Assembly: GCA_021736785.1 (NCBI GenBank)
Contig: JAIPFF010000013.1
Location: 43,936-107,935, forward strand
Source: Thiohalocapsa sp.
GTDB lineage: Bacteria; Pseudomonadota; Gammaproteobacteria; Chromatiales; Chromatiaceae
DNA length: 64,000 bases
Direction: 5' to 3'
Of this stretch, positions 60,256 to 64,000 are shown piece by piece (position 1 is the first letter of the stretch; every line of letters starts with the position of its first letter). Below the pieces are notes generated by a model. The model did not search any database. It was given only the letters and a program-made list of their open reading frames with translations, and was not told where the DNA came from. A program made the position numbers and the translations under genes.

Positions 60256-60343
60256 AAGGAGCGAGCCGCGCGACACCGGCGTCCAGGACCGAACTCACGG
60301 CCAGTCGACTCCCGACCGAAGAAGCAAACGTGCCGATGCCTTG

Positions 60344-60371
60344 TTGAAAGTATACGCAGGTTGCGTATTCT
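60344..60371 (+). promoter_or_regulatory. Toxin-antitoxin type promoter with operator
   Basis: The perfect inverted repeat ATACGCA-GGT-TGCGTAT (60352-60368) lies between a -35 TTGAAA (60344-60349) and a -10 TATTCT (60366-60371) spaced 16 bp apart. A repressor bound here would block RNA polymerase. This is the layout of autorepressed HigBA-like promoters. Confidence 0.65.
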
Positions 60372-60416
60372 TTAGGATGCGATCCAAGCCGAACTGACGG
60401 CCAGGAGGAAAAGTCG

Positions 60417-60479
60417 ATGACGCGCGAACGTAACTTGTTCGACGAGCTAATGGCAGGTGTCGAATATCAAGACCCCTGA
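60417..60479 (+). pseudogene. Remnant N-terminus of a HigA-type antitoxin
   Basis: A 20-codon ORF with an ideal ribosome site (AGGAGG, 8 nt). It reads 'MTRERNLFDELMAGVEYQDP'. The 'xxLFxELMxGVE' start is that of XRE/HigA-type antitoxins, which then continue with a ~70-residue body including the HTH. Here the frame stops right after 'GVE'. The MntA gene begins inside it (GTG 60457). It is either a deletion relic or a leader peptide; the matching operator upstream favours a relic. Confidence 0.55.
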
Positions 60480-60840
60480 ATCCCGGCAACGCGCCACCTT
60501 CGACTTCAGTCGCCTCAAGGCGCGCTGGGCAAGCGAAGACGAGCGCATGCGGATCGAGTCCGAGCAACTGATGGCCGACGTCGAGCGCTTGGGACGTCCC
60601 GTCTTCACCGCTTTCGGCGCCGATCGCGCCGTGATCTTCGGCTCGTCCATCAAAGGCCGCGCCCATCCGCGATCCGACATCGACCTGCTCGTCACCGGGA
60701 CCGACCGCTCCGCGTACTGGGATCTGCGCGCGGCGCTGGAGGAAGCGTTCGACCGTCCGGTCGATCTTTTCACCGAGGCAGACAACCCCAAGTTCGTCAC
60801 GAAGATCCTTGAGCGGGGTAGAGTGATCTATGAAGCGTAA
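60457..60840 (+). CDS. mntA: MntA-like nucleotidyltransferase antitoxin
   Basis: A 127-aa minimal nucleotidyltransferase. The catalytic motif is GS-X10-DxD: Gly62-Ser63 ('VIFGSSIKGRAH') and Asp74/Asp76 ('RSDIDLLVTG'). In characterised MntA-HepT pairs this enzyme AMPylates the HEPN toxin and silences it. The GTG start lies within the HigA remnant and has no strong ribosome site of its own, so translation may be coupled to the remnant ORF. It overlaps hepT by 11 bp, as usual for these pairs. Confidence 0.85.
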   Translation: MSNIKTPESRQRATFDFSRLKARWASEDERMRIESEQLMADVERLGRPVFTAFGADRAVIFGSSIKGRAHPRSDIDLLVTGTDRSAYWDLRAALEEAFDRPVDLFTEADNPKFVTKILERGRVIYEA

Positions 60841-61195
60841 TCTCGCGCTGCTGCGCGCCGATGTGCTCGACGAGCTCCAAGCCATCGAGCGCGTCTCGGA
60901 AACCCTGCGAGCAGTCACCGACAAGTTAGCCCTGCCGGCCGAGGAAATAAGCGCCTACGACCGAGGTGCCATCGGCTACCTTCTACACAACTTCTACAAT
61001 GGCTGCGAAAACATCTTTCGCGCAATAGCCGAATACTTCGAAAACGATATCGGCGGCGACGCCTGGCATGCGGACCTCCTCAAGCGCATGCGGCTCGAAG
61101 TCAACGGCTACCGGCCCGCCGTGATCGACGACGAACTCTATAGGCTGCTCAATGACTTTCGCGGCTTTCGCCACGTTTTCCGCAACGCTCCCTGA
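60830..61195 (+). CDS. hepT: HepT-like HEPN toxin, truncated with broken catalytic motif
   Basis: A 121-aa HEPN-fold protein. 'YDRGAIGYLLHNFYNGCENIFRAIAEYFE' and 'LYRLLNDFRGFRHVFR' are typical of the HepT/DUF86 group. Family members continue 'RHxYxxxLDWERL', completing the RNase motif R-X4-H-X-Y. Here it reads R114-HVFR-N119-A-P121-stop: His and Tyr are lost and the last helix (~25 residues) is missing. It is probably inactive as a toxin, although the upstream antitoxin is intact. The homology break coincides with the start of an unrelated minus-strand ORF. Confidence 0.75.
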   Translation: MKRNLALLRADVLDELQAIERVSETLRAVTDKLALPAEEISAYDRGAIGYLLHNFYNGCENIFRAIAEYFENDIGGDAWHADLLKRMRLEVNGYRPAVIDDELYRLLNDFRGFRHVFRNAP

Positions 61196-61349
61196 AACCC
61201 GCCGCCAACTGCTCCTCCTCCTCGGAATCCGCCCGTAGCGCCGCGATCGTCTCCAACTCGTCGACAATGCCATTGCAGCGGTTCCGCAGATCCGCCGAGC
61301 AGCGCTCGAAGGTCGCATCCAACACCTTCCGCGCATCCGCAACAGGCAC
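61149..61349 (-). CDS. Doubtful 66-aa helical ORF downstream of vapC
   Basis: Starts at GTG 61349, 9 bp after the vapC stop, and overlaps the 3' end of hepT by 47 bp. The product ('MPVADARKVLDATFERCSAD' onward, then an acidic helix 'ALRADSEEEEQLAAGF') has realistic helical composition but no recognised family. It could be the tail of a gene whose insertion truncated hepT, or a shadow. Confidence 0.3.
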   Translation of the reverse strand: MPVADARKVLDATFERCSADLRNRCNGIVDELETIAALRADSEEEEQLAAGFRERCGKRGESRESH

Positions 61350-61358
61350 CGCCGCGGG

Positions 61359-61772
61359 CTACCAGTCGCGCAAATGCTTAACCCAGACGCTTGTTTGGAC
61401 CTTGCGATAGTAGCGCTCGTCCGCGGTAACCAACGTGGCACCACATTCAAGCGCGACCGCGTGGTAAAGCGTGTCGAACAAGTGATGCCGAAGATCTACG
61501 GACAGCCGACATGCTCTCGCGAGAATCGCCGAATCCATCCGCGCCGGCAGCGCTAACGCCTCCAGCATTCGCACATCTTGCTCGGCACGGGCCGGCGTTT
61601 CCCGCGCGATCACCGCGGCCACTTCGAGCAGCCAATGGGGCGGCTGCAAGACATCGCATCCGCCGCGAGCGACGGCGGACATCAGCGCCGTGGCACGGGC
61701 AGTATCGCTCTCGCGCTCTGGGTCGTTGAACAGCCACTTAACGACGACACTGGCGTCGAGGACCAAGGTCAC
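61359..61772 (-). CDS. vapC: VapC-type PIN-domain toxin
   Basis: A 137-aa PIN ribonuclease. The acidic metal site is complete: Asp6 ('LVLDASVVVKWL'), Glu in 'HWLLEVAAVIAR', Asp in 'HHLFDTLYHAVA' and Asp in 'LVTADERYY'. VapC toxins cut tRNA or rRNA when freed from VapB. It overlaps vapB by 4 bp and lies downstream of it in the same operon. Both genes look intact, so this is the one functional toxin-antitoxin pair of the cluster. Confidence 0.92.
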   Translation of the reverse strand: MTLVLDASVVVKWLFNDPERESDTARATALMSAVARGGCDVLQPPHWLLEVAAVIARETPARAEQDVRMLEALALPARMDSAILARACRLSVDLRHHLFDTLYHAVALECGATLVTADERYYRKVQTSVWVKHLRDW

Positions 61773-62002
61773 GGCCGGCCAGCATCTCGCAGTTCGGCGA
61801 TGGCGGCGTTGCTCAAGCTCGGCCGTTCGGGGCGACCTTCCGTCAACGCCGCGAAAGCCTCCTCGCGCTGGCGCTGCTGCTCGGCCTCCTCGACGGCGCG
61901 ACGCATCAATCGAGCAACTACGGCACTCTTATTCTGGCCGGCGAACTCGCGGTTGAAAGCCTCCTTGACCTCATCCGGGATGCTGAAATTCATCGTCGCC
62001 AT
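61769..62002 (-). CDS. vapB: VapB-type ribbon-helix-helix antitoxin
   Basis: A 77-aa antitoxin. The N-terminal RHH domain 'MATMNFSIPDEVKEAFNREFAGQNKSAVVARLMRRAV' is followed by a charged, probably disordered tail that would wrap VapC. Start at ATG 62002; a second ATG three codons in (61993) is possible. A perfect palindrome 12-32 bp upstream is the likely operator for the VapBC complex. Confidence 0.85.
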   Translation of the reverse strand: MATMNFSIPDEVKEAFNREFAGQNKSAVVARLMRRAVEEAEQQRQREEAFAALTEGRPERPSLSNAAIAELRDAGRP

Positions 62003-62317: not shown

Positions 62318-62624
62318 TTGGCCGACTGGACGAAACAACGCCTGACGAGCGACAGCACGGGCACCATCACCGACCAAGAACACTGGCTGTCCGAAACGAC
62401 GCAAAGGCTGCGGCGCGCCCTCAACCCAAGCCTGATCCTGCTGTTCGGCTCGCGCGCGCGGCACCGCCGCAAGACGCTCCGACGCGGACCTGCTCATCGT
62501 CTGCGAGACCGACGCCGCCCCGCTACAGCGCATCGGCCAAATCCTGCAATTGCTGTCCGACAGCCCGTGGCCGATCGAGCCGCTGGTCTTTACGCTCGCC
62601 GAGATCTCGCGTATCGGGCCATGA
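62318..62624 (+). pseudogene. Frameshifted MNT-domain nucleotidyltransferase
   Basis: The first frame reads 'EHWLSETTQRLRRALNPSL' then 'ILLFGSRAR'. The second frame, from 62460, continues 'GTAARRSDADLLIVCETDAA' and 'PWPIEPLVFTLAEISRIGP' to a TGA at 62622-62624. Joined, they restore the nucleotidyltransferase motif GS-X10-DxD. The shift lies in the alternating CGCGCGCGCG at 62451-62460; insertion of two bases would restore the frame. No intact HEPN partner follows. Start uncertain (TTG 62318 suggested). Confidence 0.7.
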
Positions 62625-62664
62625 TCGGTTCCTCTTGCCCCTCGGTGTTCTTAAGAAGCCTAAC

Positions 62665-63641: not shown

Positions 63642-64000
63642 CTAGGGAAACCCTGATTTATTCCGCCCAAACCAATAGGGCCAGAATGCTATCATCGTTT
63701 CGTTCACGACGACCAGCCCACGGAGCCGCCGCGCCATGTCCGAAATGCCCAAGCAGCTGTCCTTCGCCGACGCCGAGTATCAGTCCAAGAAGAAGCAGAC
63801 GCGCCGCGAGCGCTTCTTGGCCGAGATGGAGCGGGTGATGCCTTGGGCCGAACTGGTCGAGGAGCTGCGCCCGCACTATTACAAGGAATACGGGCGCGGT
63901 CGCGGACGTCCGCCGATTGCCTTGGAGCGCATCCTGCGCATGCTCTGCCTGCAGCAGTGGTTCACGCTCTCCGACGAGGGGCTCGAGGACGCGGTCTACG
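63642..64000 (+). mobile_element. Left end of an IS5-family element (continues past window)
   Basis: A likely terminal sequence GGAAACCCTGATTTATTC begins near 63646, preceded by CTAG, a tetranucleotide of the kind IS5-type elements duplicate. The transposase gene starts about 90 bp inside. The right end is beyond the window, so the exact boundary is tentative. Confidence 0.55.
63736..64000 (+). CDS. IS5-family transposase, N-terminal part (truncated by window end)
   Basis: ATG 63736 opens 'MSEMPKQLSFADAEYQSKKK', then 'TRRERFLAEMERVMPWAELVEEL' and 'YKEYGRGRGRPPIALERILRMLCLQQWFTLSDEGLEDAVY', the DUF772-type N-terminal domain of IS5-group DDE transposases. The DDE catalytic part lies outside the window. 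The ORF track lists other frames here and misses this one because it has no stop. Confidence 0.9.
   Translation, partial: MSEMPKQLSFADAEYQSKKKQTRRERFLAEMERVMPWAELVEELRPHYYKEYGRGRGRPPIALERILRMLCLQQWFTLSDEGLEDAVY

Follow-up and report, generated by a model that had tools for sequence, protein, structure and literature searches.

What is the beginning of a HigA-like reading frame, with a promoter and operator of its own, doing in front of an unrelated antitoxin gene? This question is raised by positions 60344-60840 of the window, the 64,000-nucleotide stretch of Thiohalocapsa DNA analysed here. The original prediction saw in it a decapitated HigA-type antitoxin whose operator now precedes mntA. 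We conclude that a HigBA2-type operon very probably decayed in at least two steps, and that its promoter and operator became fused to an mntA-hepT module that has itself decayed.

A consensus scan identified a sigma-70-like promoter on the forward strand (60344-60371), formerly that of a higBA operon, with a -35 element TTGAAA (60344-60349), a 16-nt spacer and a -10 element TATTCT (60366-60371). It scores 9 of 12 against the consensus; shuffles of the region yield 0.0 +/- 0.1 such sites. Inside the promoter lies a perfect palindrome, ATACGCA-GGT-TGCGTAT (60352-60368), an orphaned HigA2-type operator whose core TACGC-N5-GCGTA sits between the -35 element and over the -10 element. It is the only such site, at 0 or 1 mismatch, in the 5.2-Mb genome. 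Further downstream, AGGAGG (60403-60408) stands eight bases 5' of an ATG at 60417, and the pairing energy of this start with the 16S rRNA tail, -10.8 kcal/mol, falls between the 1% and 5% quantiles of random positions. The scan and the energies thus confirm the predicted promoter, perfect 7-3-7 operator and strong ribosome site ahead of 20 codons and a stop. The intact state of the promoter and operator could reflect ongoing selection or a recent event.

The 20-codon frame (60417-60479, forward strand) encodes MTRERNLFDELMAGVEYQDP and ends in a TGA directly after CCC (60474-60479). When positions 60330-60489 were compared with 210 genomes of the same bacterial family, two loci matched at 83% identity over 87 bases and two more matched weakly; all four are higA loci. 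The matching DNA (60379-60465, E = 5e-19) stops at 60465, past higA codon 16, and tblastn with the relatives' antitoxin recovers only residues 1-16 of 110 (81% identity). By this homology the first 16 codons are the start of a HigA that resembles HigA2 of Vibrio cholerae. The resemblance claimed for all 20 codons does not extend to the last four (YQDP), which are mntA DNA read out of frame; the stop codon arises because reading enters mntA in that frame. The helix-turn-helix is absent from the window, as had been predicted: the folded DNA-binding domain of V. cholerae HigA-2 comprises residues 37-104 (PMC11006873). A microhomology at the higA-mntA junction, TGTCGAAT, was considered and is unprovable, no close mntA relative showing the original start. 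The 20-residue peptide has no match among plasmids.

The intact arrangement is preserved in a relative (genome G141, loci L043/L085), where an operator, ATACGCAATTTGCGTAT, is followed by higB (114 codons) and then higA (110 codons), the higA ribosome site falling within the final higB codons. Aligned with these loci, the window proved homologous to a higB tail joined to a higA head, which supports the reading of a decapitated HigA-type antitoxin and operator before mntA. The stretch between operator and leader (60377-60416, forward strand) is, by alignment, a toxin-gene remnant consisting of the last ~12 higB codons, AIQAELTARRKS, read from 60379. It aligns over 35 bases with the end of the L085 higB, with 3 mismatches, and tblastn with the toxin recovers residues 99-114 of 114 only; a complete RelE-like HigB is lacking in the window. 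The remnant carries AGGAGG, which is the higA ribosome site, and what had been described as an ideal ribosome site is, on the same alignment, the tail of higB. Because homology is limited to the final higB codons and the operator is native to higB, the toxin must have been deleted too. The original prediction was right that the operator is orphaned; it missed the higB deletion and the operator's native place before higB. The spacing to an ATG at 60377 suggests that the toxin's own start codon (60377-60379) was possibly kept, out of frame with the tail. Upstream of the operator, 60279-60304 (GCGTCCAGGACCGAACTCACGGCCAG) also resembles a higB tail (P about 0.002 from shuffles), and every 96-base stretch of the first 60 kb scores lower; this may be a second, older copy, hinting at tandem duplication.

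Broken toxins beside full-length antitoxins are common among related higA loci. Toxin residues 101-113 are kept in L044, 58-114 in L086, 65-112 in L087 and 1-21 in L088; in these four loci higB was deleted independently and higA is full length. The toxin stub of L088 is 23 codons long and its end overlaps the higA start. The operator is present in L044, L087 and L088, in each case with two mismatches to that of the window. In L089 and L090 the toxin is not recognisable, and a stop codon interrupts higA in L089. Since the deletion endpoints differ among these loci, several deletions must have occurred, and the first deletion in the window is one more such toxin loss.

The gene at the other side of the junction, mntA (60457-60840, forward strand), encodes a complete MNT-family adenylyltransferase antitoxin with Polbeta and NTP_transf_2 matches and a GSX10DXD motif (GSSIKGRAHPRSDID); its score with the MntA model, 48 bits, is under the 60-bit cut-off. 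Its relatives, 42-53% identical, are spread over five genera of the family, among them that of the window, and conservation begins at about residue 13 (FDFSRLKARW). Among plasmids, viral contigs and genome contigs there was no close relative but one fragment of 59% identity, and across 369 genomes of the class at E <= 1e-15 the only match was the window's own. As predicted, mntA starts inside the leader frame, at GTG 60457 with a 23-nt overlap; a stop at 60448-60450 closes the frame upstream and makes an earlier start impossible. The gene was also said to lack a ribosome site. The site is indeed weak (-2.2, against -10.8 at the stump ATG), but this is not telling: related mntA genes mostly lack one as well, and we rejected its absence as evidence of coupling. 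Its reading frame is undamaged, and mntA may therefore be under some selection.

The leader's final CCC TGA (60474-60479) is a known +1 frameshift-prone sequence, at which a slip would link the HigA stump with MntA immediately ahead of the conserved region. At CCC TGA, +1 shifting reaches 15% in Escherichia coli pheL; in Salmonella the figure is 1.9% (PMC5009743). By analogy, small amounts of a HigA-MntA chimera may be produced by slippage, the motif itself being an accident of the junction.

Downstream, hepT (60830-61195, forward strand) is truncated, a feature that the original prediction had missed. It matches HepT-like_2 at positions 1-74 of 110 only, against 1-108 in a full relative. Relatives with a fully readable HepT continue through FRHVFR(N/S)xY into ~40 more residues; the window protein ends at FRHVFRNAP and a stop, so that the tyrosine and about 40 C-terminal residues are missing, and these are absent from all frames just downstream. 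None of the relatives compared shares this truncation. In Shewanella oneidensis, Y104 of the RX4HXY motif takes AMPs from MntA (PMC7641770). The HepT of the window has neither this motif nor a complete HEPN fold, reading RHVFRNAP with N in place of H. All these HepT relatives carry N or S at the motif H position and, to judge from their sequences, their chemistry may differ from that of the classic motif. Comparison of HepT with solved structures gave matches by chance only.

The surroundings hold further fragments. A reading frame on the minus strand (61149-61349) adjoins the hepT truncation; it has no family or plasmid match and is possibly a piece of another gene joined at the break. A PIN-domain (VapC-like) toxin gene with a short upstream partner, the two overlapping by 4 bases, occupies 61359-62002 on the minus strand, and this pair is a third toxin-antitoxin module within the same 2 kb. 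A second nucleotidyltransferase (MNT) remnant at 62330-62640 is frameshifted, with LILLFGSRA in one frame and SDADLLIVCETD in another. The gene start at 63738-64000 resembles what we take to be an IS5-type transposase, and may signal mobility of the island.

Both junctions can be read from the alignments, and from them we infer the following order of events. A first deletion would have joined the promoter and operator to the last ~12 toxin codons, leaving a toxin-less antitoxin. A second event, a rearrangement, would have severed higA behind codon 16 and placed the remaining head against the 5' end of the unrelated mntA-hepT; no strain with an intermediate arrangement was found. The mntA gene and the hepT stump would now be transcribed from the orphan promoter without repression, because the genome lacks a HigA of this kind. 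Translation would begin efficiently at the higA stump. From there mntA could be reached through re-initiation or coupling at its GTG, some 20 nt ahead of the stop codon of the stump; the +1 slip would be a low-level alternative. Since HepT is truncated, little activity is to be expected of the module, whose function is most likely slight. Decay and rearrangement seem to have left a fossil here, not a functioning regulatory circuit. "Promoter capture" fits the arrangement of the DNA and implies no proven use.

Other explanations give the fusion a role. The leader might be a genuine, selected peptide controlling mntA by translational coupling or attenuation, as its strong ribosome site, its overlap with the mntA start and the weak mntA site would allow; yet neither leader peptide nor operator core occurs upstream of related mntA genes (0 of 19 loci, two of which, L014 and L108, were compared over little upstream sequence). 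This comparison was the one that the original prediction had named as decisive against its own reading, had the leader recurred before many mntA genes. The peptide is, moreover, a higA start plus out-of-frame mntA codons, and related mntA genes lack a ribosome site even without any leader, so we regard this explanation as improbable. Only a slim chance goes to the view that the fusion has acquired a use, with the HigA operator and promoter driving MntA by coupling or as a slippage chimera, such that the HigA of an invading plasmid might act as a switch for a resident antitoxin of a different type.

Still slimmer is the chance of live cross-regulation, in which a HigA from elsewhere would bind the retained operator and so repress mntA in trans. 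This operator is a perfect palindrome with the same core as the footprinted HigA2 site, but it is present in single copy and the genome (5.2 Mb, 99.95% complete) lacks a HigA of this kind: the best match reaches E = 0.02 with none below, the NadS antitoxin model has no match, and no HigB of the HigBA2 kind was found. The Nudix locus, compared across the genus, does not carry the operator, nor did an intact higBA turn up at that site. The suggestion that another HigA could still control the operator in trans is therefore not supported for this genome, and the proposed genome search for a HigBA with the same operator found none. A resident HigA is unlikely to exert such control, given that intact HigA and HigB of the kind and a second operator are all missing; the regulator would have to come from an incoming or unassembled replicon, a HigA from an incoming plasmid being possible. 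Least probable of all is that the junctions are assembly artefacts. The assembly is a draft of 96 contigs, but both junctions lie well within a 107,935-base contig, the genome has no second donor higBA copy to create a chimera, and comparable toxin deletions occur in other genomes.

Stepwise decay of the higBA operon thus remains the preferred explanation. It makes the locus a readable case of the decay of toxin-antitoxin operons, including its probable order: the toxin lost first, with operator and antitoxin kept, and then the antitoxin cut, so that its promoter came to precede a module of other origin. A single genome, the case also shows, is a poor basis for inferring leader peptides or cross-regulation. 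If the promoter is active, the locus would show, in a simple form, rewiring between two toxin-antitoxin types.

Three known systems frame these observations. In V. cholerae higBA2, footprinting defined the operator as one inverted repeat, TGTACGC(N)5GCGTACA, upstream of higB2, beginning after the -35 element and extending over the -10 element (PMC11006873). The window shares the promoter layout, the core TACGC-N5-GCGTA, the single operator and its position and, through the intact relative, the toxin-first order and the antitoxin family (E = 6e-24 to V. cholerae HigA-2, PDB 5j9i and 5jaa). In contrast to V. cholerae, it retains only ~12 last codons of the toxin and 16 of the antitoxin, the DNA-binding domain being gone. 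The second module resembles the type VII MntA-HepT (HEPN/MNT) system (PMC7641770) in its mntA-hepT order, overlapping genes and GSX10DXD in MntA; it differs in that its HepT ends before the RX4HXY tyrosine and belongs to a subfamily with N or S for the motif H throughout. Finally, 2253 orphan antitoxin copies were counted in Klebsiella, and orphan antitoxins are abundant in other bacteria (PMC7192599). The relatives L044, L086, L087 and L088, with the toxin lost and the antitoxin kept, resemble these orphans, whereas in the window the antitoxin is gone too and its promoter now stands before another module.
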